45,068 bases of DNA from Gemmatimonadota bacterium (GTDB taxonomy: Bacteria > Gemmatimonadota > Gemmatimonadetes > Longimicrobiales > Gaopeijiaceae), in the NCBI GenBank assembly GCA_022560615.1, contig JADFSR010000035.1, positions 1 through 45,068 on the forward strand, written 5' to 3'. How positions within the stretch are numbered: position 1 is the first letter of the stretch; the number at the start of each line of letters is the position of its first letter. The position numbers and the translations under genes are program-made. Of this stretch, positions 6,292-29,883 are shown one piece after another. The notes beneath the pieces were generated by a model. That model made no database searches and was not told where the DNA came from. It worked only from the letters and a program-made list of their open reading frames with translations.

Positions 6292-8396
6292 GTTCGCCCC
6301 CGTTTGTGAGTTACCGACGGATCGGCGACTAGCGGGAGGCGCATGGAAAACGTGCTGCCTCGACCGGGTTCACTGTGCACCTCGACATCACCTCCGTGCG
6401 CTGCGACGATTTGCTTGACGAGGGTAAGACCGAGGCCCGTGCCCTTGACACTTCGGGTGAGTTCGCCTCCGCCGCGATAGAAACGGTCAAAAACCTTGTC
6501 GGCCTCTTCAGCTGCCAATCCGATTCCGAAATCCCGGACGGCGATGACGATGTGGGCATTCTCGCGGAAGCTCCTCACGACCACCTCTCGCGACGAGCCG
6601 GAATACTTCACACCATTGTCGATGAGGTTGTTGAGTGCCTGGCGAATGGCATCGGCGTCGAGGAATGCACTGGGAAGCGAATCTTCCAATTCGGTGCGAA
6701 CGGTAAATCCCTGGTGAAGCACGCGATGCTGCGCCTCCGTGACGATATCCTCGACCAACGATTTCACGTCCACAGCCGCCCTGGACATTTCTCGTCGGCC
6801 TTCCTCCATCCGGGCAAAGTCGAGCACGTTGTCGATGAGCATCGACAGGCGTTCGCTCTGCTCAACAAGGACGTCGTAGTAGCGACGCCGTCTGTCCTCC
6901 GATGGAACCATGTCCGCCTGGAGCATCTCGGCCAACTGGCGTATCGACGTGAGCGGGCTCTTGAACTCGTGGGACACCGTAGAGACGAAATCCGATTGCA
7001 TGCGAGCCAACTCCAGCTCTCGGCTGACACTTCGGATCGTGAGTACCAGACCGCCCAGCAAGATGCCGGCGAGCAGCAGAAAGGCGTAGAAATACACCGC
7101 GCGCCGTGAGGTCAGAAAATTCTCGGCGAGTCCCATCGATTGGGGCGATAGTTGCAGAGTCCAAGGCGGGAAGTCGCCAAGGCTCGCCGTTACCGTGAGC
7201 GATCTTGCCGGCGGCGCCACATCAGACGCAGCGAGTGTGTCACCGCCCTGCGATCGTAAAACCCATACCACGCGACTTGCTTGTTCGGTTTGTGCTACCT
7301 GGGCGATGTATTGTGCAAAGGCTTCGGCGTCGAGAAGAAATCCCCAGTCGACCGGCGCCGTCCGAACCGCGCCCGGCGTGAGCACCACCGTATGAAAGGC
7401 GCGGCCCCCAGGGCCAACCACCGAGCGCCGCACATCGCCGCTTCCCACACTGAGCTGCCCGCTGGCCATCACTTGGAACTCAAGGAGCGACGCCGCACGT
7501 TCGCGATTCACCGTCTCCGCGGCGATGAGCCCCGCCACGGTATCACCGTATGAGGCATATACATCGTCCTTCACGACTTCTTCGAGCACCTGACGCGTAC
7601 GGGTGGCAAGCAATTCGAAATGTGCCGGAGTCAGGGGCCACCGTCCGCCCACGAGAGACGCGTACAAGTCGACGTAGGCATTCACCCCAGAGACGCTGTC
7701 CCCGGATTCGAACAGGATCGAGCCGTACTCCAATCCGGCGGATGCGCCGAACGGCATACCGCTCGGCATCAGCACGGGGCCGAGTTCGTCGCGGATCTTC
7801 CGGTACGTCTCGCCGGCCTCGGCCAGGTTGCCGAGTTTCCGTCGGACCCGAGCCACCGCATTCATAGCATCACCGCGTTCCTGGTCGTTGGCCGCGCGCT
7901 CGATCAGTTGTCGATAGAGTGTGAGTGATCGACGAAGGTCGCCGGACCGGAGTTCGCGCTCCCTGGCCGCGTTGAAGCTGCTCGTCCATCCACCCCTTGC
8001 GGACACCGGCGCGCGCCGCTCTGGCTCCATCTCGAACCAGAGGCCTTTCGCCGCCACGACGCGCAGAGGACCTCGGGGCTCGACCGTAAACACCGCCCAA
8101 ATCAGCGGCTCTTCCCGGACCAGGCTATCGATATCCGCTATGACATCGGAACCCCGCGAATCCGCCGCCGCGACTACCGATGCAAGCGCGTCTTCGAGGC
8201 CATCCAATCGCCCCTCAACCCCCCGTCGAACCTGGTTCGCCATCTCCTGGAGCCGCGTTCGCTGCTCACGCTCCACCAGCGCCCGGTCGTTTTGGATTCC
8301 CCTGAATGCCAGATAGCCCAGGAGGCAGCTCGGGAGAGCGATCCCGAACAGAAAGGACAGCAGGATACGGTTTCGGACGTGCCTACCCGACGTCAT
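6288..8396 (-). CDS. Membrane sensor histidine kinase with large extracytoplasmic TPR-like sensor region
   Basis: A 702-aa kinase. Membrane segments lie at about residues 10-31 and 432-454; between them is a roughly 400-residue periplasmic region that includes a tetratricopeptide-like stretch (about 150-205, SLTLYRQLIERA, LAEAGETYRKIRDELG). The cytoplasmic part holds HisKA with phospho-acceptor H476 in VSHEFKSPL, N-box NNLIDNGVKYS (589-599), G1 DFGIG (622-626), F-box FDRFY and G2 GTGLGL (652-657), so it looks catalytically complete. The sensor region does not match a PAS or Cache pattern that I recognise; its signal is unknown. It is first in a minus-strand block and overlaps the response regulator by 4 nt. 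The upstream region carries repeats rather than an obvious promoter. Confidence 0.93.
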   Translation of the reverse strand: MTSGRHVRNRILLSFLFGIALPSCLLGYLAFRGIQNDRALVEREQRTRLQEMANQVRRGVEGRLDGLEDALASVVAAADSRGSDVIADIDSLVREEPLIWAVFTVEPRGPLRVVAAKGLWFEMEPERRAPVSARGGWTSSFNAARERELRSGDLRRSLTLYRQLIERAANDQERGDAMNAVARVRRKLGNLAEAGETYRKIRDELGPVLMPSGMPFGASAGLEYGSILFESGDSVSGVNAYVDLYASLVGGRWPLTPAHFELLATRTRQVLEEVVKDDVYASYGDTVAGLIAAETVNRERAASLLEFQVMASGQLSVGSGDVRRSVVGPGGRAFHTVVLTPGAVRTAPVDWGFLLDAEAFAQYIAQVAQTEQASRVVWVLRSQGGDTLAASDVAPPARSLTVTASLGDFPPWTLQLSPQSMGLAENFLTSRRAVYFYAFLLLAGILLGGLVLTIRSVSRELELARMQSDFVSTVSHEFKSPLTSIRQLAEMLQADMVPSEDRRRRYYDVLVEQSERLSMLIDNVLDFARMEEGRREMSRAAVDVKSLVEDIVTEAQHRVLHQGFTVRTELEDSLPSAFLDADAIRQALNNLIDNGVKYSGSSREVVVRSFRENAHIVIAVRDFGIGLAAEEADKVFDRFYRGGGELTRSVKGTGLGLTLVKQIVAAHGGDVEVHSEPGRGSTFSMRLPLVADPSVTHKRGRT

Positions 8397-14054: not shown

Positions 14055-14423
14055 CCGTGGTAGAAGTACAGTGGGCCGCCACCCGCAAGCGGGTACCCGG
14101 GGGTCTCGCGAGTTCAAGAGTAGGAAGGACGACGAGTCGTAGCCGTAGCGGGCACCGCCGCCGAAGGCGGTGGTCCGAGGAGGAGAGACGACCTATTGGG
14201 CCGCGACCCCCCTGCGCCCAACACCGCGAGTGACATATGATCTTCCAGGACGTGGGTTACGGTGGCACGGCCCCATCTCCGTCGTTGGAGCTCCTAGCCG
14301 TAGCGACGGCTATGGCGTCGTCGCACCGCGACCCACGCTACGCGCGGGTTCCCCTCTGGAGCCGTGGCACCCGGGGACCCGTGCGTAGCACGGGTGGCGG
14401 CCCCCGCTGTACTTCTACCACGG
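14055..14423. repeat. TIR-bounded dispersed repeat element, copy 1
   Basis: The ends are inverted copies of CCGTGGTAGAAGTACAG followed by a GGCCGCCACCCG-like stretch (left end from 14055, right end to 14423). The interior carries hairpins: CACCGCC/GGCGGTG near 14155-14172, and TAGCCGT-AGCG-ACGGCTA near 14295-14312. A 78-bp core (14252-14329) is nearly identical, in reverse orientation, to 37365-37442, and shorter matches continue over the rest of the element. No coding capacity is apparent, so it is MITE-like or a structured intergenic repeat. Its right end abuts the stop codon of the sprA-like gene at 14427-14429. It fills most of the 454-base gap between that gene and the comEA-like gene. 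Confidence 0.75.
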
Positions 14424-14426
14424 ACG

Positions 14427-17400
14427 CTACGGACCACGCGGGCGCCGCGGGATCGTGCCCGCCGAGAACTGGAGCTGCCCCCACAGCATGAGCTGGAACT
14501 GCGTCGATCCGGTACGCTGCCCGACGAAAGACTGACGGTCATCGTAGCTCATCTGAACTCCTATCTCGAAACCGTTGACGCTGGTGTCCAGCGACAGGTT
14601 CACGCTCCTGAGGATTTGGTCCAGGAAAGCGACGCATTCCTGGCGAGCGGTGGTCGTGCGGCACTCACGCTCCGATGTGTATCCGGCGATCAGCGAGAGT
14701 CTGACCGCACGATCGAGGCGGTGAGCGAGCCCGCCAGGCGGGACGAACAGCGAGGACACCGTGATGTGGTGCTCACGTCGGTCCCGCTCCGTGTTTCCGG
14801 TCGGATCCACGCCGCGCCCCTCTCGAAACGCCCCCCGGTAGCTCGTCACGAGGGTCCCCCGCCAGGCGACCGAGAGGTTGATCGGGATCTGCACGTCCTC
14901 GTCGAAGCGGCGCTGCACGCCGCCGCCGCCGAATTCGGTCTCTCGCTCGATGCGCGTAATCCCCGAAGAGAGGCTAACGGACCGAATTTTCGTCGCGGCC
15001 GGCAGGGTCAACGCAGGTAGCCGAGCGCGCACGTCCGGCCACCGCTTGAGCACCGTGCGGCGATCGCTGCGCGTGTCCAGCGTCGTGGCCTCGGTCTGTT
15101 GGAAGCCAGCGTCGATACCGAAGCCGCCCGGGAGCACCACGCCCCAGCCGAGCGTCCAGGCAGACCGGTCCGTGAACGTCGCAGCAGTATCGCCCTCGAT
15201 GATTCGAAAGCCCTCGGGGCCTCCAAAGCCGAACTGATAGCCGAGCCCCGGGTCGACCGGGTCGCGATTGAATCGCGAGACGATTCCGTCCTGGTACGTC
15301 ACTGTGAGAGGACGCAGAGCGCGGATCGCAGACCGGAACTCAGCGATACTCGCGGGATCGTCCTCCTGGCCAGGACCGAGCCACGACTCGACCATCCGAG
15401 TGGGGTCGAGGGAGAAGTTCGCTCGCCAGTCCCGCCGGCCGCTCGCGTTACGAGCGAGAGCGAGAGTGGTGTCACCGTCGAGAATCTGACGATCCAGAAG
15501 ATTCGCGTTGCGGTCGGTCCGGTACACCGTATTCCAATCGAAATCGCTCCTCAGCCATGAGAGCACACTCGGCCCGAAGGACACTCGGGTCTGTAGAGAG
15601 CGACTGGTCTCCCACCCGAGGTCGAGGCCCGCAGCGCGAGTCCGCTCTGCCCGTATGAGTTCGCGCACGCGCTCGTCGCTCACGGCTTCTTCCGGCGGGA
15701 GCACATCTCGCACGCTCGCCATCGTGATGCTCGCCGAGAGAGGCGGCAACGGTCTGAAGCGAACATCGGTGGCCGTCTGAAAAGCCTCGCGCGGGGCTCG
15801 CGTCACGAGCGACAGCGAGTCGTCCGCGTGCTCGGTGATGCGGTCGAAGCGCAGGATTCGGTTGTCGATCCTCGAATAGCTCGTCCCGATCGAAACACGT
15901 TCAGGGCTCCACCGAAAGCGCGAGCCCAGCACCTTCTCCTCCAGAAAGCCGGGGAGCAGCGCGCGCACCGCGTCGGTGGCGAATCCTGGTACGACGGCAA
16001 AGTCGCGCACACCAGGGTCCCGAGCCCAGGCCAATCCCGCATCGACGGCTCTGGCGTCGTGCTCGGTCGTGACGGAGGAGCCGGCCACTGTCGAATACGC
16101 GAGCCGGGCATTGAGCCCGTCCACGACGAGGCCGACCCATGGATTCGCGGACCGCGTCCGCTTCCGGAACGAGAGACCGACTCTGGTCTGGCGCGTGTCC
16201 GTGGCGCGGAGACCCTCCAAGCGATCAGCCCGCACGTCAGAGTTCGCGAGGAAGAGGGGTGCCTGCGTCGCACGGTCGTGCTCGAGCGTGACCGGCAGAT
16301 CGATACCCCACTCCGCCGGCATCCACCGGTCCAGTGCGAGCGTCGACCTTACGTTGATGGTGCGGTCGTTCTGGTACGTCGGGTCGTCACGGAGCTGCCG
16401 GAAGAACGCACCCCGACTGGTGAGGTTCGCGCGGGTCGTGAGCACGCCCGCGCCATCCAACTCGAAGTCTACCGACGTCGCTACGCCGGCGTCCCGCACG
16501 GGCCGGCCCAATCGAAGCTCGTCGATCCAGATCTCACCGGAGATGGGCAACATGCCTTCGTTCCAAACCCCCATCGACAGCTCCCGCACGGCGGCCAGGT
16601 TCGGCGCACGTCCGCGGTCCTTGAGCACCACCGCATACGTCGAGTCGGAGCCCCAGACCGTCACCGGTGGATCACCGGGACCACGCGGCGTAAGCAGGAG
16701 AGCCTCTTCGGCGCGGCGGCGCAGATCGAACCACTCGACGAAGTCGATCACGATCTCCGGCAACCAATTTCCCGGGGTGACGCCGGCGGAGCTCGCCGGA
16801 GCCTGCAGCGGAGTCCGGAACAGGTAGAAGTTCTCCGCGTCGCTCCCCACCTTGAAGAAGAAGTAGTGCGGTCGGTCGGGTCCGAAGTCGCCCTCGCGAG
16901 GGACGACCCACAGCTGCGCGCGCCGGTAAGCCAGGAAGTTGCGCGGCCTCTGCGCAAACCGGTGATAGACCTCGGCGCGACTGTGCGCGGGGATGTCTTC
17001 GAAGCGGATGCCGAGCGACTTCTCGTTGAACTCGATGCCCTCCCCTGAAAACGCCGAAGTGGGGTTGATGAGCTCTTCCAGCACGCCCGGCGGTGAGGCG
17101 TATTCGTCCCCTTCGGTGACCCGTGAGACCGAGGCGACCTCCAATCGGCCGAAGCCCACGAGCGTGTCTCCGATGATGCCGCTCAAGACGCCCTCTCCGG
17201 CTCGCTTGATCCAGCGGGAGCCGACGAGTCTCATGCGGGCAATCTGCAGGCGGCGGTTCTCTGCCCCGGAAACGGTAAGGCGCATGTGCCGCACCGCTCG
17301 CAGATCCGCATCGCTGAACGCACCACCGACCTCGATCGCATCCGTGCCCCGGATCGGGATCCGGTACAGCTGGAATTCGGTGCCGGTCTCCTCCTTGGTG

Positions 17401-20400
17401 CGAGCCAAGAAAGGGGACGTGCCATCGAGGCGCACCACGTAGCGGAGGTGTCGCTCGCGTACGTCCAGGTTGCCGTCCTGATCGAGATCTTCGGTATCCT
17501 GGCGCCCGTTCCCTCGAGTGCATGGCGCGCGCACGTCGGCGATCCGGTAGATCCGACCGCGCTGACCCTCGCAGGTCTCGTCCCAGACGCCGCGAGAGTC
17601 GGCCTCGTCGTTCCAGATCTCTCCAAGCCGGGGATCGGCCTCTTGATCGAGCAGACCAAGTCCCCATCGCTCTCCGGTCGAGGCGCGCAGGCCGGACGTA
17701 TTCCCGAGCGAGTCTATGAAGAACGCGTCCTCGCTGACTGTGCCGAGGTCGATCACCAGCGTGAGTTCCCGCGCACCTGACGCATAGAACTCGATGAATT
17801 CCGTCTTGGTCAGGTCGAGTCCGTTCGTGGACAGCGAGGTCGTGATGGAACGCCAGGACGGCTCCCGCACCGGCCCCTGCCCGAACGACAGGAGCATTCC
17901 GGGCTCTCGGACCTCCGCACCTGCGACCCGGATCTCTCGGTCGATGTCGAGTCTGGGGAAGAAGCCCTCGTGAACCCCGACGCTGTCACCGACCACCGAC
18001 TCGACCACCCAGGAGTGCTGCCAGACCAGGGGGACGGCAGTCGAGGCGTCGAGCGAGGCCGGCAGAGTCGACTCCGCTCCGTCCCTCTGGGTCGGCGCGC
18101 TCCCCAACTGCCAGTTGTAGGAGAGCAACGACACCGGGAGCTGAGCCCGGGCGTCGAAGTCGTCGAGAAACGCCTGACCCTTGGTATTGGGGTTCGGTAA
18201 CGACACGGCGAACTCGCCGTTCACGGAAACCGAGGTCTCGCCGTCGAGGCGCAGCCCGGGAAGCCCGTCGAGCACGCGGTCGAGCCACGCCACCCGAGTC
18301 TGGTAGGACCCGCTCACCCCACCGAGCAACGTCGCCCCGGGCTCGGTCCCGAGAATCGGCCGGTTGACAACGGAGCGCTCCGAGCGGTAGAGCCCTAGCA
18401 CGTCGACGCCTCCTCCCACACCGAGGTCGGCATGTGTGCTGATGCCGAACACCTGGGTCGGCGAGACCTGGAACAACGCACGCTGCTCCCATGTCACACG
18501 AACCGGGGCGTCGGGGTTCGCGGCAAAAAGCTGGTCCGGCTCGAGCAGCCGGACCTGGCCGACGTCGTAGTCGATCTCGTAGTCGACCCCCTGCGTCAAC
18601 AAACGGTCTCCGAGGAAGATGCGTTCGCTCCCGTCTCGGATCCCGAACGCCCCGAGCGAGAAGGACGAGATGACGCCTTGGCTGCGCAGACGGTACCCTA
18701 GCGTGAGCCGAAACCGGCCCGCGTTGTCACGCTCGAACGGGTCCTCTTCCTCGTAGATCCGCCCGTTGGCGTCCTCTCCGAGAATCCGGCTGGTTTCGAG
18801 GTCCGTGAGCCCCAAGGCCGGAAGCGGCGGTGGCACGGCGAAGGGACGCAGCGTGGGAAAAACCACGAAGGTCCCCTGCACCGGTGGCTGCTCCTGGAAA
18901 AACTCCGCACCCGGCGAGTACACGAACGAGGGGTCGAGCGCATCGACGGGAGCCTCCTCGTCGAGGCCGAAGAGTCTGAGGAACGTGACGTCCTCCCCCG
19001 TCGGGCCACGCTTGAACGTTCGGCCAGCGGACAGCTCGCCGAGTGAAATCGTGAGCTCCACTGACGAGTGCTCCACGTCAGGCGACCCCGAAACCCGATA
19101 GACCTGGTGCATCTCTTGGTCCCACGTGGGCCGGCCAGGTTGATGGTTCGCCCCGGACGCCTTGAGCAGCTTGAGCGTGGGGCGCCCGCCCGCGTTGTGG
19201 ATCCTCTCCGGGTTGTAGTCCCCGACGGTATCCCCGACCGCGGTCACGTACGTGACCGCGAGCATTTCGTCTCTTCGCAGCGGCGATCGGAGCGCCACCC
19301 AGAGTCCGCTCGGGTGCACGAAGTAATCGAGGCCGGGCTGCAAGTATCGGAACCAGCCGGACTCGCCGACGGCGCCCTCCTCGTTCTCGGCGACCGCATC
19401 CGCTTGGATGAATCCCTCGACCTGCTGCTGGAAGACCGGATCGTCTTCGAAGCGGTACAGCTGGATCGGGTCGAATCCTGGCGCAACGGACGGCGGCGCG
19501 GACGCAGGATCCAAGGCCAACGCGTCAACGTGCGGGTACTCGTCGATCTCGCGCGGGTCGACCAGAAAGAAGAACTGACCCCGCACATAGTCCGCATCAT
19601 CGAGCACCAGCGTGTCTTGCTGCACGAAGCCGCGCTGGTCGCCGAGACCCGTCAGCCTGAACTGGCGCGAGTTCAGGTCGCCCCTCTGCTGCGCCCACAC
19701 CGACTGGAACTCCAGCGGGCCGAGCTGTCCCTCCGCCTGGAACCCGAAGTTCCCGGCGGGGATGCCCTCGGTCAGAAAGCGGGAGTTGGTGGGCAACCGG
19801 AAGTCGACGTCGCCTACCTCGACACGCTGCAGGATGTCGTCCTCCCGACCCTCGTAGAAGATGTTGATGCGGTTCGAAGCATCGAACTCGCGCGATTGGT
19901 CGAAGTCCACATCCACGCGGATGCGGTCCGCGATGGTGCCATCGACCTGCACGCCGAACCGCAGTTCGGGGCTCAGTTGGGGTATGAGATTGGGTCTGCA
20001 ACTGACCTTGAACCGTTCGTCACACGGCCGGAAACGCGCCCACTCCCCGCCGACCTCCATCCGGCTCGTGACCATCAGAGCCAGGTCGGCGTATTCGCTC
20101 TGAAACCTCGGCGGGGCGTCCGGCGCCGCTGGAGCTTCGCCAACACGACGAATTGGTTCTGGCGCGGCCGGCAGGAACAACGTCGAATCAGCCGCGTTCT
20201 GCCCGAAGGTGAGCACCCTCCACAGTTGGGTCGGGTCGAGCAGAGGGGCGGCGACGGCGGAGGGAAGCCTCGCAAGGACCAGACCGGGCGCTTCGTGGGC
20301 AGCGCGAAGCCCCAGGCGGCCCTCGTACACGGGGATTCGCTTCAACCCGAGCCGCACATGGGGTTCGTCCGCGGCGGCGACCAAGCCCGAACGGACGGTC

Positions 20401-20546
20401 GTCGCCGGGACTGACAGGTCACTGCGCAGAATCGTGTCGAGCCCGATCTCGAGGCTCGGAACGGCCGCGTGCGCACGGGTCCCGGCGCTGGCTGGAAGCA
20501 CCGGCATGAGCAACGCCAGCCCGAGCAAGAGCGAAAAAACGCGCAC
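14427..20546 (-). CDS. sprA: SprA-like giant outer-membrane protein
   Basis: A protein of 2039 residues. I place the start at GTG 20546, because GAGGGAG lies just upstream and the protein then opens with a signal peptide (VRVFSLLLGLALLMPVLPAS); the frame is open further upstream but runs into the lptF region. The SprA N-terminal signature appears at about residues 170-290 (RIRVDVDFDQSREFDASNRI, IFYEGREDDILQRVEVGDVD, RFLTEGIPAGNFGFQAEGQL, WAQQRGDLNSRQF). The remainder is long, beta-rich and Arg/Asp-rich, as expected for a very large barrel. In Bacteroidota SprA is the channel of the type IX secretion system; here other T9SS genes are not visible, so export function is inferred. Divergent from lptF with an 87-nt intergenic region; the stop codon abuts a repeat element. 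Confidence 0.85.
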   Translation of the reverse strand: MRVFSLLLGLALLMPVLPASAGTRAHAAVPSLEIGLDTILRSDLSVPATTVRSGLVAAADEPHVRLGLKRIPVYEGRLGLRAAHEAPGLVLARLPSAVAAPLLDPTQLWRVLTFGQNAADSTLFLPAAPEPIRRVGEAPAAPDAPPRFQSEYADLALMVTSRMEVGGEWARFRPCDERFKVSCRPNLIPQLSPELRFGVQVDGTIADRIRVDVDFDQSREFDASNRINIFYEGREDDILQRVEVGDVDFRLPTNSRFLTEGIPAGNFGFQAEGQLGPLEFQSVWAQQRGDLNSRQFRLTGLGDQRGFVQQDTLVLDDADYVRGQFFFLVDPREIDEYPHVDALALDPASAPPSVAPGFDPIQLYRFEDDPVFQQQVEGFIQADAVAENEEGAVGESGWFRYLQPGLDYFVHPSGLWVALRSPLRRDEMLAVTYVTAVGDTVGDYNPERIHNAGGRPTLKLLKASGANHQPGRPTWDQEMHQVYRVSGSPDVEHSSVELTISLGELSAGRTFKRGPTGEDVTFLRLFGLDEEAPVDALDPSFVYSPGAEFFQEQPPVQGTFVVFPTLRPFAVPPPLPALGLTDLETSRILGEDANGRIYEEEDPFERDNAGRFRLTLGYRLRSQGVISSFSLGAFGIRDGSERIFLGDRLLTQGVDYEIDYDVGQVRLLEPDQLFAANPDAPVRVTWEQRALFQVSPTQVFGISTHADLGVGGGVDVLGLYRSERSVVNRPILGTEPGATLLGGVSGSYQTRVAWLDRVLDGLPGLRLDGETSVSVNGEFAVSLPNPNTKGQAFLDDFDARAQLPVSLLSYNWQLGSAPTQRDGAESTLPASLDASTAVPLVWQHSWVVESVVGDSVGVHEGFFPRLDIDREIRVAGAEVREPGMLLSFGQGPVREPSWRSITTSLSTNGLDLTKTEFIEFYASGARELTLVIDLGTVSEDAFFIDSLGNTSGLRASTGERWGLGLLDQEADPRLGEIWNDEADSRGVWDETCEGQRGRIYRIADVRAPCTRGNGRQDTEDLDQDGNLDVRERHLRYVVRLDGTSPFLARTKEETGTEFQLYRIPIRGTDAIEVGGAFSDADLRAVRHMRLTVSGAENRRLQIARMRLVGSRWIKRAGEGVLSGIIGDTLVGFGRLEVASVSRVTEGDEYASPPGVLEELINPTSAFSGEGIEFNEKSLGIRFEDIPAHSRAEVYHRFAQRPRNFLAYRRAQLWVVPREGDFGPDRPHYFFFKVGSDAENFYLFRTPLQAPASSAGVTPGNWLPEIVIDFVEWFDLRRRAEEALLLTPRGPGDPPVTVWGSDSTYAVVLKDRGRAPNLAAVRELSMGVWNEGMLPISGEIWIDELRLGRPVRDAGVATSVDFELDGAGVLTTRANLTSRGAFFRQLRDDPTYQNDRTINVRSTLALDRWMPAEWGIDLPVTLEHDRATQAPLFLANSDVRADRLEGLRATDTRQTRVGLSFRKRTRSANPWVGLVVDGLNARLAYSTVAGSSVTTEHDARAVDAGLAWARDPGVRDFAVVPGFATDAVRALLPGFLEEKVLGSRFRWSPERVSIGTSYSRIDNRILRFDRITEHADDSLSLVTRAPREAFQTATDVRFRPLPPLSASITMASVRDVLPPEEAVSDERVRELIRAERTRAAGLDLGWETSRSLQTRVSFGPSVLSWLRSDFDWNTVYRTDRNANLLDRQILDGDTTLALARNASGRRDWRANFSLDPTRMVESWLGPGQEDDPASIAEFRSAIRALRPLTVTYQDGIVSRFNRDPVDPGLGYQFGFGGPEGFRIIEGDTAATFTDRSAWTLGWGVVLPGGFGIDAGFQQTEATTLDTRSDRRTVLKRWPDVRARLPALTLPAATKIRSVSLSSGITRIERETEFGGGGVQRRFDEDVQIPINLSVAWRGTLVTSYRGAFREGRGVDPTGNTERDRREHHITVSSLFVPPGGLAHRLDRAVRLSLIAGYTSERECRTTTARQECVAFLDQILRSVNLSLDTSVNGFEIGVQMSYDDRQSFVGQRTGSTQFQLMLWGQLQFSAGTIPRRPRGP

Positions 20547-20633
20547 GAGCTCCCTCAGCGGCCGAACAGACGGGTCGGACGCGGGGTAGGGAGTGGCCGA
20601 CACACTATCAGCCACGACTTCACGGACGCTTCG

Positions 20634-22094
20634 ATGGGCATGGGAGTCCTTACCAGATACCTGATCAGGGTCCACGTCGGCCCCTTCCTGTTCGCCCTCT
20701 CGACGCTGACTGCGCTCCTTTTCCTCAACGCAGTCGCACAACGAATCGAGGGGCTCCTGGGCAAAGGGCTCCCGTGGCAGGTGGTTGTTGAGTTTCTGGC
20801 CCTCTCCTTACCTCATACGATCGCGTTGTCCCTCCCGATGTCGGTGCTCGTGGCGGTGCTCTACGCATTCAGCGACATGACGTCGTCAAACGAGATCACC
20901 GCAATGTCCGCCGGAGGCATTCGCCCGGCGCGCCTCCTCGTACCTCTCGTGGGCATGGGCGCCCTCATGACAGGCGTCATGTTGTACTTCAACGACGTCG
21001 TGCTGCCCGAATCCAACCATCGGTTAAAGAACCTCATGGTGGACATCGCTCGCAAGAGCCCGACGCTTGAGTTGCGAGAGCAGATCGTAAACGAGATCCC
21101 CATCGAATCGGGGCTCGACAGGTACTTTTTGATCGCGACGCGCATCGACCCCGTTGAGAGTACGCTGGAAGAAGTCACGATTTTCGACGGGAATAATCCG
21201 ATCCGCCGGCGCACGACGTACGCCGCGCGCGGCGAGATGGTCTTCAATGAGGAGAAGACGGATCTCTACCTGACGCTCTACGACGGCGTCGTGCACGAGG
21301 TGCAGAGCGACCGCGTAGGGGGCTTCCAACGCCTCTACTTCGAGAAGCAGATCATCCCGCTGCGCGGTGTCGGGAACGAATTGGTGCGGCGCTTCGGTGG
21401 TACCGACCGCTCGGACCGCGAGATGGGCTTCGCTCTGCTCGCCGAGAACGCCAGGGCGAGAGAGATCGAGCTAGACTCAGTGCGGAGCGAGAGTCAGGCC
21501 GCGACCTTGGAGGCCGTGAGGCTGGCGCTGGGGCGGCCCACGAGCGACGACTCGGCCGCGGTCGCGAAGCTGCGGGCTGGGCGCGTGCGCGGACTGGTGG
21601 CGGTCACCGGGGACGGTGAAACGCTGCTTTCCCGGGACGCGGTCACCCAGGGCGCTGTGATCTCCAGCCGCACACGCGCAATCCGGGCAGCGTCGCTGAG
21701 ACAGACCGCTTACCGTTACAGGGTCGAGATCCACAAGAAGCTCGCGATCGCCTTCGCGTGCATCGTCTTCACGTTGATCGGCCCGCCCCTCGCGATGCGC
21801 TTCCCGCGGGGTGGAGTCGGCATGGTCGTGCTGGCATCGAGCATGATCTTCAGCATCTACTGGACCGGACTCATCGGCGGCGAGATCCTCGCGGACCGCC
21901 GCATCGCGGGCCCCGCAGTCACGATGTGGATGGCGAACGTGGTCTTCTTCATCGTCGGCATCGTCTTGGTCAGCCGTATGGGACGCGCGGGCTCTACGAT
22001 CCGTGGCGGCGGCATGCTCGACGACCTCTTGAGCAACGCGGGCGACAGCCTTGCGCGCCTCCTGGGAGGCCGGAGAGAAGGAGTGGCCCCGTGA
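20634..22094 (+). CDS. lptF: LPS export ABC transporter permease LptF
   Basis: A 486-aa YjgP/YjgQ-family permease. With ATG at 20634 (alternative ATG at 20640) the protein begins with the family N-terminus LTRYLIRVHVGPFLFALSTLTALLFLNA. Three membrane segments lie in the N-terminal part (about 15-35, 60-85, 105-125), a periplasmic beta-jellyroll region follows, and three more segments lie at the C-terminus (IAFACIVFTLIGPPLAMRF onward). LptF and LptG with LptB2 extract LPS from the inner membrane. It is longer than E. coli LptF (366 aa) because of an extra region of about 100 residues before the last membrane segments (around residues 270-370, RAREIELDSVRSESQAA onward). The last bases GTGA overlap the lptG start. 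Confidence 0.92.
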   Translation: MGMGVLTRYLIRVHVGPFLFALSTLTALLFLNAVAQRIEGLLGKGLPWQVVVEFLALSLPHTIALSLPMSVLVAVLYAFSDMTSSNEITAMSAGGIRPARLLVPLVGMGALMTGVMLYFNDVVLPESNHRLKNLMVDIARKSPTLELREQIVNEIPIESGLDRYFLIATRIDPVESTLEEVTIFDGNNPIRRRTTYAARGEMVFNEEKTDLYLTLYDGVVHEVQSDRVGGFQRLYFEKQIIPLRGVGNELVRRFGGTDRSDREMGFALLAENARAREIELDSVRSESQAATLEAVRLALGRPTSDDSAAVAKLRAGRVRGLVAVTGDGETLLSRDAVTQGAVISSRTRAIRAASLRQTAYRYRVEIHKKLAIAFACIVFTLIGPPLAMRFPRGGVGMVVLASSMIFSIYWTGLIGGEILADRRIAGPAVTMWMANVVFFIVGIVLVSRMGRAGSTIRGGGMLDDLLSNAGDSLARLLGGRREGVAP

Positions 22095-24145: not shown

Positions 24146-24174
24146 TTGGCGCTCCCGGTGACCGACGCTAGTTT
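24146..24174 (+). promoter_or_regulatory. Possible promoter for the metH leader transcript
   Basis: TTGGCG (24146-24151) and TAGTTT (24169-24174) are separated by 17 nt and would place the transcript start near 24181. This fits a leader of about 130 nt that contains the terminator at 24267-24301. The -10 box is weak. Confidence 0.35.
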
Positions 24175-24190
24175 CCTGTGAGTAGATTTT

Positions 24191-24301
24191 GGGGCGATTT
24201 GAGGAATATTGCGGCCCGCGGGATTCGTCCACGGTGATGAGCCCGCGAACGAGCTAAAAGACCAACGCCCCGTCGCGCACTGTCGCGAGGGGCCTTTTTT
24301 T
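24191..24301 (+). promoter_or_regulatory. Probable riboswitch or attenuator in the metH leader, class not recognised
   Basis: An intrinsic terminator (24267-24301) stands only 12 nt before the metH start and cannot end any plus-strand gene, since the gene upstream (dapF-like) points the other way. GGGGCG at 24191-24196 is perfectly complementary to CGCCCC at 24266-24271, the 5' arm of that terminator, so the two structures exclude each other. Between them lies a 6-bp helix CGCGGG (24217-24222)/CCCGCG (24242-24247), followed by ACGAGCTAAAAGACC. TTCGT in the loop (24224-24228) can pair with ACGAG (24249-24253) as a pseudoknot. I see no cobalamin box, SAM-I core or SAH motif. The GCTAAA string recalls SAM-II/SAM-V, but the topology does not fit. 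Confidence 0.55.
24267..24301 (+). terminator. Intrinsic terminator in the metH leader
   Basis: The stem GCCCC-(G)-TCGCG pairs with CGCGA-GGGGC (ten base pairs with one bulged G), closed by the six-base loop CACTGT, and is followed by seven T residues (24295-24301). The T-tract ends 12 nt before the metH ATG, which implies conditional termination rather than an end-of-gene terminator. Confidence 0.8.
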
Positions 24302-24313
24302 GTCGAGGGATCA

Positions 24314-27300
24314 ATGGCGTCATCCGCGGGTCGGGCCCGTTTGATTCGGGAAGAGTTGCAGCGCAGGATCCTCGTCCTCGACGGCGCCATGGGCACCATG
24401 ATCCAGCATCACGATCTGAGCGAAGAGGACTTCCGCGGTCAGCGCTTCACCGACACCGACTCCGACCTTTTCGGAGCCAATGACATCCTGTGCCTTTCGC
24501 AGCCCGATTTGATTCGCGGGATCCATGTGGAGTACCTGGAGGCGGGCGCAGACCTGATCGAGACCAATACGTTCAGCGCCAATCGGATCTCACTCGCGGA
24601 CTACGGGCTGCAAGAGATCGCACGTGAGCTCAATCGCGCGGCCGCCCGTCTCGCGCGCGACGCCGCGGACGACATCGAGGCGCGCGATCCCTCCCGCACG
24701 TGCTGGGTCGCTGGCGCGCTCGGCCCCACCAACCGCACGGCATCCATCTCGCCCGACGTGGGTGATCCCGGCGCGCGCAACGTCACCTTCGATGAGCTCG
24801 TGCGCGCGTTCCAGGAACAGGCGCATGGCCTGCTCGAAGGCGGAGTCGACATCCTTCTCATCGAGACTGCGTTCGACACGCTGAACGCAAAAGCGGCGCT
24901 GTACGCGCTCTCTCTGGTGCTCGCCGAAGCGGGGGTCGATACGCCGGTGATGATGTCCGGGACGATCACCGACCAGAGCGGGCGCACGCTCTCCGGCCAG
25001 ACGCCCGAGGCGTTCTACAACGCGATCGTACACGGCGTGCACCCGGGACCGGGTCGCGAGAGCGGGCTACTCAGTGTAGGGCTCAACTGCGCGCTCGGAA
25101 TCGACCAGCTGCGACCGCACCTGGAAGAGCTGTCCGACGTAGCTCGGCTTCCCATCAGCTGCTATCCCAATGCAGGGCTTCCGAACGAGTTCGGCGAATA
25201 CGACGACACTCCGGAGCACATGGCGAGCGTGACGTCGGACTTCGTGGACGCGGGATTCCTGAACATCGTGGGCGGCTGCTGCGGGACGACCCCAGACCAC
25301 ATCAGGGCGATCGCAGATATCGTCGCGGGGCGGGCGCCGCGCACCGTCCCCGAGCCGCCTCGACGTACGCGGCTGTCCGGTCTCGAGCCGCTGACGATCG
25401 GTCCTGACTCGCTGTTCGTGAACGTCGGCGAACGCACCAACGTCTCGGGCTCCAAGCGCTTCGCAAGCCTCATCGAGGAAGGTGACTACGAGGCCGCGGT
25501 CGAGGTCGCCCGTCAGCAGGTGCAGGGCGGAGCCCAGATCATCGATGTGAACATGGACGAGGGGCTGCTCGACGGAGTCGCCGCGATGCCGCGCTTCCTC
25601 AACCTCCTCGCGTCCGAGCCGGAGATCGCGCGCATCCCGGTGATGGTCGACTCCTCCGACTGGGACGTGATCGAGGCCGGCCTCAAGACGCTTCAGGGCA
25701 AGGGCGTCGTGAATTCGATCTCGCTGAAGGACGGCGAGGACACGTTCCGCGAGCGAGCGCGCCTCGTGCGCCGGTACGGCGCCGCAGCAGTCGTGATGGC
25801 GTTCGACGAAGAGGGCCAGGCGGACACCCTTGAGCGCAAAGTCGAGATCTGTGAGCGCGTCTACAGGATCCTCGTAGACGAAGAGGGCTTCCTTCCCGAG
25901 GATATCATCTTCGACGCCAACGTCTTCGCCGTGGCAACCGGAATGGAAGAGCACGACGAATACGCGATCCGGTTCATCGAGGCGGTACGGCAAATCAAAC
26001 AATCGTGTCCGCACGCGCTGACGAGCGGCGGCATCAGCAACGTTTCGTTCTCCTTTCGGGGCAGCCCAGAGGTGAGAGAGGCGATGCACACGGCCTTCCT
26101 CTACCACGCGATCGCCGCAGGGCTCGACATGGGCATCGTGAACGCGGGTGCCTTGCCGGTCTACGATGAGATTCCAGCAGAGCTGCTCGAGCCCGTGGAG
26201 GATGTGCTCTTCGCGCGATCTCCAGACGCCACCGAAACCCTCACTCAAATCGCTCTGAACCGGTCCGGCACCACGGAACGCCGCACCGAGGAGGACCTGA
26301 CGTGGCGGACGCTCGACGTTCATGAGCGGCTGAAGCACGCGCTCGTGCAGGGCATCGACAAGTTCGTCGAGGAGGACGCGGAAGCAGCGCGCCAGGAGCT
26401 TCCGCTGGCGCTCCACGTCATCGAGGGCCCGCTCATGGATGGAATGAATGTCGTCGGCGACCTCTTCGGCAGCGGACGCATGTTCTTGCCACAGGTCGTG
26501 AAGAGCGCGCGAGTGATGAAGAAGGCGGTGGCGTACCTGACTCCGTTCCTGGAAGCGGAGAAGTCGGGCGCGACCGACAAGGGCACCGTGCTGCTCGCCA
26601 CGGTGAAAGGTGACGTGCACGACATCGGCAAGAGCATCGTGGGCGTCGTGCTTCAGTGTAACGGCTACTCGGTGATCGACCTCGGGGTCATGGTGCCCGC
26701 CGAGCGCATCCTGGAAACCGCGCGCGCGCAGAAGGTCGACGTGATCGGCCTGTCCGGGCTGATCACACCGTCGCTTGTCCAGATGGTGCACGTCGCCAAG
26801 GAGATGCAGAGGACGGGCTTCGACACGCCGCTCCTGATCGGGGGCGCGACGACATCAAAGGCGCACACCGCTGTGAAGATCGAGCGCAACTACGACGGCG
26901 CGACCGTGCACGTGCTGGACGCCTCCCGAGCGGTCGGGGTCGTGTCCGCGCTGCTCGATGAAGAGCGTCGAGACGGCTACATCGCCGAGGTGCGAGCTGG
27001 TTATGAGTCCGAGCGCGAGCGGCGTGCGCAGCGCACCGCTCGAACAGAGTTGCTGTCGATCGCGGTGGCCCGCGAGCGCGCCGAGAAGCTGGATTGGTCC
27101 TCGTACGACCCGCCAGCACCGTTGCGGCAAGGGGTTCATGTCTTCGACGTGGAGATCGCGGAACTGCGGCCATACATCGATTGGACGCCCTTCTTCCAGG
27201 CCTGGGAGTTGGCAGGCAAATATCCGGCGATCCTCGACGACGAGATCGTCGGCGAACAGGCTCAGAGCCTATGGGCCGATGCCGGGGCGCTCCTGGACCG

Positions 27301-28039
27301 TCTCGTAACCGATGGTCGGGTGCGCGCGCGCGCCGTCGTGGGCTTCTTCCCTGCCAACGCGATCGGCGACGACGTCGAGCTGTACACATCAGCTGACCGC
27401 ACAGAACGCCTCACCGTGCTCCACCATCTTCGTCAACAGTTCGCGAAGGGTGGGAGGGCGAACCGCTGTTTGGCGGATTTCGTCGCTCCGGCTGACGCCG
27501 GCAAACCCGACTGGGTCGGTGGCTTCGCGGTTACGGCCGGCATTGGCGTAGAGGAGATGGCGCGCGAGCTGGAGGACGCCAACGACGACTACAGCGCGAT
27601 TCTGGTGAAGTCGGTCGCGGACCGGCTCGCGGAGGCACTCGCCGAGCTCATGCACGAACGCGTCCGCCGCGAACTGTGGGGGTACACTCCGGAAGAACAG
27701 TTGTCGAACGACGCGCTCGTCCGGGAGACGTACCGAGGGATCCGGCCGGCCCCCGGTTACCCCGCGTGTCCGGACCATACCGAGAAGCGCACACTCTTCG
27801 AGCTGCTGGACGTCGAGAAGTCGCTCGGCATCGAGCTCACAGAGAGCTTCGCGATGACCCCGACGGCATCCGTGAGCGGTTGGTACCTGTCGCATCCCGA
27901 CGCGGTGTACTTCGGCGTGGGCCGCATCGCGCGCGATCAAGTCGAGGATTACGCCAGGCGAAAAGGGTGGACCATGGAAGAAGCGGAGCTCTGGTTGTCG
28001 CCCAATCTCGGTTACGATCCGGAAGGAGACACACCGTGA
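24314..28039 (+). CDS. metH: Cobalamin-dependent methionine synthase MetH
   Basis: A 1241-aa full-length enzyme that transfers a methyl group from methyl-tetrahydrofolate via cobalamin to homocysteine. The homocysteine domain has zinc ligands C259 (GLNCALG) and C322/C323 ([10 protein letters not shown]). The pterin domain begins around 370 ([15 protein letters not shown]). The cobalamin cap and binding domains contain DVHDIGK with axial H769. The C-terminal reactivation domain carries the SAM-binding [15 protein letters not shown]. All four modules are present and intact. The start ATG 24314 has GAGGGA just upstream and matches the usual N-terminus ([14 protein letters not shown]). The stop overlaps the following GTG start by GTGA. 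Expression is probably controlled by the leader at 24191-24301. Confidence 0.97.
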
Positions 28040-29883
28040 GAGCATTGATCGAGGACGACCTCGTTCACGTATTCGATGGCGCGATGGGTACGCTGCTCTA
28101 CGGCCGAGGTGTGTTCGTCAACGTTTGCTACGACGAGCTCAACAGGCGCCGACCCGAGCTCGTGCGTCAGATCCACGACGAGTATGTCGCGGCCGGCGCC
28201 GAGATTCTCGAGACGAACACGTTCGGCGCCAACCCGGTGAAGCTGTCGTCGTATGGGTTGGCCGAGCAAACCGAAGAGATCAACCGGGTAGCCGCCGAGC
28301 TGGCGCGAGCCGCTGCGGGCGACCGCGCTAGCGTCGCAGGCGCCATCGGCCCGCTCGGCATTCGCATCGAGCCATGGGGCCCGACCGCGCGGGACGAGGC
28401 GGTCAACTTCTTCAGAAGACAGGTGAACGGGCTTCTCGAGGGGGAGGTCGATGGATTCGTGCTCGAGACGTTCTCAGACATGAGCGAGATCGGATGCGCG
28501 GTCGCGGCCGTGCGAGGACTGAGCGACCTGCCGATCATAGCCCAGATGACCGTGGGGCCGGGCGGCAAGACCGCTTATGGAAACGACGCGACGCTGATCG
28601 CCCGTGAACTGACCGAGCTTGGAGTCGACGTCGTCGGCCTCAACTGTTCGGTCGGCCCAGCGGTCATGCTCGATGCCATCGAGGAGATGGCAGAGGTGAC
28701 CAACTTGCCGCTGATCGCTCAGCCCAACGCCGGCCTGCCCCGCACCGTGCGAGATCGGAAGATGTATCTCGCCAGCCCCGAATACATGGCGCAATATGCG
28801 AAGCGCATGATCGATGCCGGCGCGCGCTTCGTAGGGGGGTGCTGCGGCACGACCCCGGACCACGTGAAGCAGATCCGGATCGCGGTAGCTTCGGTGCAAC
28901 CGAAGAGCGTCGTCGTCGCCGAGCCCGTGGCGGCAGCAGGCGTCGAGGCAGCCCGAGAACCGGTACCGCTCGATGTTCGCTCCGCATGGGGCCGCAAGCT
29001 GGCTCGGGGAGAGCCGGTGGTGTCGGTGGAGATCATTCCTCCGCGCGGTTGGGACCGAGTCGCGCTCATCGAGCCCGCCCGGCGCTTGAAGGTCGCGGGG
29101 GTCGACACGCTGGCGATCGTGGACAATCCGAGATCGGTCAGCCGAATGGGCGCTCTCTCTGCCGCGCTGATCGTCGAACACGAGGTCGGCATCGAATCGC
29201 TGGTTCACTACACCTGTAGGGACCGCAACATGCTCGGCATGATCTCGGACCTCCTGGGAGCCGCCGCCGCGGGTATTCGAAACGTTCTCGTGGTCAGTGG
29301 CGAACCGCTGCTGCAGGGTCCCTACCCGGACGCGACTGCTGTCTTCGACATCGACTCCATCGGGCTGACCAACGTCATGAACGGTCTGAACCGCGGCATC
29401 GATCCGGGCGGCAACTCGATCGGGACACCCACAGAGTTCGTGCACGGCGTCGCGGCCAACCCCGGCGCGGTCGATCAAGAGCGCGAAGTCGAACGCTATC
29501 GGTACAAGGTCGAGGCCGGGGCCGACTTCGCCGTCACGCAACCGATCTTCGACCCGCAGGCACTCGAGCGCTTCCTCGAGCGCGTGGGAAGCGGAAGCAT
29601 CCCGGTCATCGCGGGGATTTGGCCTTTCCTGAACCTCCGCAACGCCGAGTTTCTCGCGTGCGAGGTGCCGGGCGTGGTAGTACCCGACGAGATCGTCGAG
29701 CGCATGCGCAGCGCCCAGGAAAGCGGTTCTGACGCCGCCCTCGAGGAAGGCGTGCTCATCGCTCTCGAGATGATCGAAGCGGTGCGGCCGCACGTGCAAG
29801 GATTCCACCTCAGCGCCCCGAGCCGGCGCGTCGACGTAGCGCTGCGCGTGCTTCGTGAGGCAGGCGTCAGCGCGACCGCTTGA
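28036..29883 (+). CDS. Bifunctional homocysteine S-methyltransferase / methylenetetrahydrofolate reductase
   Basis: A 615-aa fusion like Bacillus YitJ. The N-terminal half (about 1-290) is a zinc-dependent homocysteine methyltransferase: [10 protein letters not shown], then zinc ligands C204 (LNCSVG) and C269/C270 ([10 protein letters not shown]). The C-terminal half (about 320-605) is an FAD-dependent [18 protein letters not shown] carries the catalytic Glu region, and [20 protein letters not shown] and [19 protein letters not shown] are family signatures. MTHFR makes the methyl-THF that MetH uses. GTG 28036 overlaps the metH stop (GTGA) and has GGAAGGAG eight bases upstream. The extra homocysteine methyltransferase module duplicates the first domain of MetH next door; its methyl donor is unknown. 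Confidence 0.93.

Follow-up and report, generated by a model that had tools for sequence, protein, structure and literature searches.

SAM-II riboswitches (RF00521, SAM_alpha, and RF01726) are H-type pseudoknots built from a P1 helix, a GATTTG third strand, a P2 helix of TTGC with GC-U-AA and an outer extension of that helix, P2a. They accompany methionine-cycle genes, and their P1 usually has the form (C)GTGG(T/C)/(G/A)CCAC(G), with an L3 of the TTAAACAAGTC type. Terminators are known in SAM-II leaders, for which an OFF switch has been proposed (PMC1273637; PMC6061858). In the SAM-II leader of Sinorhizobium meliloti metZ, held to be an OFF switch, binding of SAM to the aptamer is predicted to let a terminator downstream of it form (PMC9373788). 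The related SAM-V class (RF01826), marine and translational, has a four-pair P1 and, between P1 and the adenines that make A-minor contacts, a P3 hairpin that is absent from ordinary SAM-II elements (PMC6061858). A search of the available literature for SAM-II in Gemmatimonadota found no relevant paper.

Here we describe the leader of metH in a 45,068-nucleotide stretch of Gemmatimonadota DNA, referred to in its entirety as the window. We assign positions 24187-24301 to the SAM-II class of S-adenosylmethionine riboswitches, acting as an OFF switch of metH by premature transcription termination, and put the probability of this reading at roughly 0.93. The element is a divergent SAM-II with a SAM-V-like hairpin that is mostly missed by Rfam, and it represents a known class, not a new one. 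With SAM-II it shares the H-type pseudoknot and all its parts, the methionine-cycle gene, the terminator downstream and, probably, the promoter just 5' of P1. The features of the locus are as follows.

24146-24174, plus strand: likely promoter, TTGGCG (24146-24151), 17 nt, TAGTTT (24169-24174); 7 of 12 consensus bases
24192-24195, plus strand: P1 5' strand GGGC, pairing with 24214-24217; 99.2% of cells paired in 30 leaders
24196-24201, plus strand: GATTTG, third strand of the P2 triple helix; conserved in 30 leaders and the Rfam SAM-II consensus
24203-24204, plus strand: P2a 5' strand GG, partner CC at 24262-24263; assigned from P2a covariation in relatives
24208-24212, plus strand: A followed by the P2 5' strand TTGC, which is invariant in 30 leaders
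24214-24217, plus strand: P1 3' strand GCCC; pairing in the alignment of 30 leaders
24218-24246, plus strand: inserted P3-like hairpin in L3, GCGGG/CCCGC extended by TTCGTC/GATGAG; from transcript folding
24247-24250, plus strand: GAAC linker with invariant A24249; from the alignment of 30 leaders (compare A41/A42 in SAM-V)
24253-24263, plus strand: GCTAAAAGACC, comprising the P2 3' strand, bulged T24255, A24258 and then the P2a 3' strand CC; GCTAA invariant
24266-24271, plus strand: antiterminator 3' strand CGCCCC, doubling as terminator 5' arm; perfectly complementary to GGGGCG at 24191-24196
24267-24301, plus strand: intrinsic terminator, 10 pairs and T7; -17.3 kcal/mol
24314-28039, plus strand: metH, cobalamin-dependent methionine synthase, the regulated gene; NCBIfam equivalog models NF007024 (2016 bits) and TIGR02082 (1701 bits)
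28033-29883 (start approximate), plus strand: bifunctional homocysteine S-methyltransferase / methylenetetrahydrofolate reductase (MTHFR); NF006396, 676 bits

The nearest gene upstream of the leader is dapF, which starts at about 24096 on the minus strand and diverges from metH; the divergent arrangement described in an earlier, sequence-only reading of the locus is correct. The products of dapF, metH and the bifunctional gene all pass NCBIfam cut-offs, and the latter two genes are probably carried on one transcript. Transcription may start at about 24181, as the promoter-like TTGGCG-17-TAGTTT weakly suggests; its position just 5' of the element agrees with the short promoter-to-P1 distance of SAM-II (PMC1273637). 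The pattern TTGG..-17-TA..TT likewise lies 16-20 nt 5' of P1 in several relatives (L005, L006, L009, L020 and L058), and the best promoter score, averaged over 30 leaders, is 6.2 compared with 4.4 in shuffles. Elsewhere in the window, the minus strand at 14427-20741 carries a very large open reading frame of 2104 aa that by eye looks like an SprA-type outer-membrane secretion protein.

Read from its bases, the metH leader has the SAM-II/SAM-V pseudoknot layout, namely P1, the GAUUUG third strand, the P2 5' strand, the P1 3' strand and GCUAAA as the P2 3' strand, in the order GGGC-GATTTG-AGGAATA-TTGC-G-GCCC-[hairpin]-GAAC-GA-GCTAAAAGACC. The core GATTTG ... TTGC ... GCTAAA is common to the window and the RF00521 consensus, contrary to the first impression that no core motif of a known methionine-cycle riboswitch was visible. 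Pseudoknot P2 is formed by TTGC (24209-24212) with GC-AA (24253-24257); the TTCGT/ACGAG pseudoknot that had been suggested finds no support, TTCGT being located in the variable hairpin and not conserved, whereas the CGCGGG/CCCGCG helix noticed at the same time does exist (24217-24222 with 24242-24247). A motif alignment to the SAM-V crystal structure, with ligand contacts taken from PMC6061858, equates T24198-T24200 with U8, U9 and U10, and 24208-24212 with A18, U19, U20, G21 and C22; the 7 nt between the equivalents of U10 and A18 match the SAM-V spacing. The pocket is nearly identical to that of SAM-V, all of the SAM-contacting bases (U8, U9, U20, U47, A48 and A50) being present as T24198, T24199, T24210, T24255, A24256 and A24258. 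By analogy with those contacts, T24255 would read the adenine of SAM and A24258 its aminoacyl end, and A24249 probably makes an A-minor contact to P1. The window has P1 of GGGC/GCCC, of the four-pair type GGGY/RCCC that characterizes its branch, in place of the usual SAM-II form, and its L3, instead of being of the TTAAACAAGTC type, holds an added hairpin (24218-24246) situated, as in SAM-V, between P1 and the adenines that precede P2. It further deviates from the consensus beside the pocket (AATA, not CGTA) and has lost the third P2a pair (A24205/A24261).

The metH N-terminus served as query against 59 whole genomes from the window's family and its order, and the leaders were then read. In the window's Gemmatimonadota family (35 genomes), metH was matched in 34, and the element is present in 30 of these 34 leaders; it was not seen in the metH leaders L023, L024, L028 and L053. 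In the alignment of the 30 leaders (A1), 98.8% of the cells in P1, P2 and P2a are standard pairs, compared with at most 56% when the structure is slid by 1-3 columns as a control, and 19 cells show double changes versus 5.4 in shuffles. The inner P1 pair alternates between C-G (15 leaders), U-A (12) and U-G (3), and P2a, the outer part of the pseudoknot helix, varies among GGC/GCC, GGT/ACC and AGC/GCT, that is, by C-G/U-A and G-C/A-U changes. Inner P2 is paired in all 30 rows and never varies, and is therefore silent as to covariation, speaking neither for nor against the helix. The collection of leaders that had been proposed as a check thus yields conserved P1, P2 and P2a helices, with compensatory changes in P1 and P2a. 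L3 is at least 26 nt long in 14 of the 30 leaders, and each of these 14 is predicted to fold there into a hairpin of unconserved sequence, which begins directly at the end of P1 or shortly beyond it. When the window and the sister genome from its genus are left out of a covariance model, the sole match of that model in the 45 kb is the window's element, at 54.9 bits (E 1.3e-12).

The relation to SAM-II was established through these homologous leaders and not, as had been envisaged, by an Rfam search of the leader itself. At gathering score no Rfam family matched the window, the SAM-I, SAH, SAM/SAH, cobalamin and THF riboswitches included, and none matched the leader even at E 10, a search that measures detection by one model and does not test the fold; RF00521 found nothing above cut-off across the window's own genome, with matches elsewhere in it at chance level only. 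RF00521, whose cut-off is 36, matches the metH leader L019 of the same family, a row of A1, at 53.2 bits; L021 (22.8 bits), L022, L025 and L032 align to this model over their full length, below the cut-off. For the family's remaining metH leaders Rfam reports no SAM-family element, which explains why the class had gone unnoticed. The metH leaders of a sister family (f3) match RF01726, the 'SAM-II long loop', and its cut-off is passed by four of them (L035, L036, L042 and L044). RF01826 finds nothing at E 1 in the genomes of 39 relatives, the window's included, and the element is accordingly filed as a SAM-II variant and not as SAM-V, with which its terminator is also at variance.

Across the phylum, RF00521 is above cut-off in 93 of 150 genomes and the family model matches in 242 of 395. 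The two models often match the same sites, as before metH in G102:C24 (56.5 and 55.3 bits), G070:C1 and G096:C265, before a bifunctional methyltransferase/MTHFR gene in G078:C100, and in G089; the genes beside the first four sites were recognized by eye from their translations. Outside the phylum, the signature recurs in Latescibacterota, Fermentibacterota, Aminicenantes, Anaeromyxobacter and others, and 10 of the 18 such loci scanned are above the RF00521/RF01726 cut-off. The sequences form a continuous series, from CGTGGTGATTTG...CCACGTTAAACAAGTCGCTAAA to GGGGCGATTTG...GCCC-[hairpin]-GCTAAA. Three further observations concern individual genomes. In G005, G027 and G028, of family f1, ordinary RF00521 elements occur away from the metH site found by the family model, so that one and the same genome holds both the standard and the divergent form of SAM-II. 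Locus L209 (G080:C13) has two SAM-II elements back to back, at 14227-14302 on the minus strand and 14510-14583 on the plus strand (60.6 and 35.5 bits), the first of them followed by a gene for what by eye is a PanB-like ketopantoate hydroxymethyltransferase, an unusual SAM-riboswitch target. Finally, a record of an uncultured Marinomonas, entered as a gammaproteobacterium (L143, CANLRQ010000015.1), gives a weak full-length match to the SAM-II-variant model at 6999-7078 (24.5 bits, E 3e-4).

The terminator consists of GCCCC (24267-24271), a bulged G24272, TCGCG (24273-24277), the loop CACTGT, CGCGA (24284-24288), GGGGC (24289-24293), a C and T7 (24295-24301), and the metH ATG at 24314 follows 12 nt beyond the T tract. 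These bases and coordinates, and the perfect complementarity of GGGGCG to CGCCCC, are just as first read. A simple terminator scan did not list the structure at 24267-24301, probably because of the bulged G, and the minimum free energy of the whole leader is not unusual (z -0.45) and uninformative. Terminators of this kind occur in 17 of the 30 homologous leaders, whereas dinucleotide-shuffled versions of these stretches would give 3.9; the other 13 leaders have none under the rule applied. When folding of the growing transcript is computed, with energies that leave out pseudoknot and ligand, the antiterminator pair 24193:24269 has a probability of 1.00 from the synthesis of CGCCCC until that of the terminator 3' arm, and 0.01-0.03 afterwards.

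The two pairings are mutually exclusive, which suggests the following mechanism. With SAM scarce, the nascent GGGGCG, which includes the P1 5' strand, would pair with CGCCCC as an antiterminator, the terminator 5' arm would be occupied and polymerase would continue into metH. With SAM plentiful, the pseudoknot would be locked and GGGC kept in P1; the P1 5' strand would then be unavailable to the antiterminator, so that CGCCCC should remain unpaired and thereby favour the terminator and a stop 12 nt before metH. On average, the P1 5' strand complements the terminator arm only modestly better than it does shuffled arms (7.8 versus 6.3), and for the window 6.5% of shuffles do as well. The shuffled mean is exceeded, mostly unstrikingly, in 15 of the 17 terminator-bearing leaders, L029 and L032 being below it. 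This modest mean, together with the 13 leaders that have no terminator, indicates that the expression platform varies. In the window and in a few relatives (L009, L018, L056 and L058) the antiterminator can be considered well founded, and in the remaining terminator-bearing leaders plausible.

The same aptamer might instead control metH mainly at the level of translation, or the gene might be expressed constitutively, the terminator merely lowering read-through and SAM acting on translation or RNA stability. The leaders devoid of a terminator are compatible with this, as is the outcome of folding, which without ligand ends in the terminator state as the more stable one; moreover, PMC9373788 reports for S. 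meliloti metA a SAM-II leader whose terminator, lowering read-through only, is apparently not SAM-switched. Against it, complementarity between the P1 5' strand and the terminator arm is perfect in the window and in L009 and almost perfect in L005, L018 and L056, and the metH start lies about 50 nt beyond the end of P2, which leaves no ribosome-binding site directly masked. We regard such control as unlikely. The metZ leader is a close parallel in its aptamer and terminator, although it precedes another gene in another phylum and no L3 hairpin is described for it in the text consulted.

A change of ligand, for example to SAH, methionine or folate, within an aptamer of SAM-II/SAM-V shape appears very improbable. 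Ligand-switched variants do exist, as in the change from SAM-I to spermidine (PMC10853860), and the window is off consensus by the pocket; the ligand-contacting bases are nevertheless all unchanged, both sulfonium-facing U included, metH makes methionine, the precursor of SAM, and the orthologous leaders are ordinary SAM-II. SAM, which was among the candidates initially listed with SAH, methionine, folate and B12, would thus fit the class, and SAM binding, rejection of SAH and termination upon SAM are what membership in SAM-II would predict. Hardly any weight is left for an unrecognized riboswitch class, to which the window's lack of an Rfam match had pointed, given that orthologous leaders are recognized as SAM-II and that models run in both directions pick out the same sites: the terminator-gated methionine-cycle riboswitch with an antiterminator put forward by the sequence-only reading is well supported, but its claim of novelty lapses, with L019 and leaders of related families passing Rfam SAM-II and the element belonging to that class. 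Leader-peptide attenuation, for which there is a tiny open reading frame (ATG AGC CCG CGA ACG AGC TAA, 24237-24257) whose ATG, inside the variable hairpin, is missing in the sister genome L005 and which lacks a run of methionines, and a stray terminator of another transcript, at odds with dapF as the nearest upstream gene being on the opposite strand, can be set aside as equally remote.

The SAM-II assignment bears on the relationship between SAM-II and SAM-V, because the optional P3 hairpin comes and goes within one family of orthologous leaders. It appears somewhat probable that the Gemmatimonadota harbor a structural bridge between the two classes, a transcription-terminating SAM-II-like lineage, mostly overlooked by Rfam at metH, that has gained a SAM-V-like P3 and shortened P1 to GGGY, with the 5' strand doubling as antiterminator. 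The alignment of 30 leaders could be used to widen the Rfam SAM-II model. For the organisms themselves, the finding means that in a family of uncultured Gemmatimonadota SAM very probably switches the B12-dependent methionine synthase by way of a SAM-II aptamer that goes unrecognized by the reference database.
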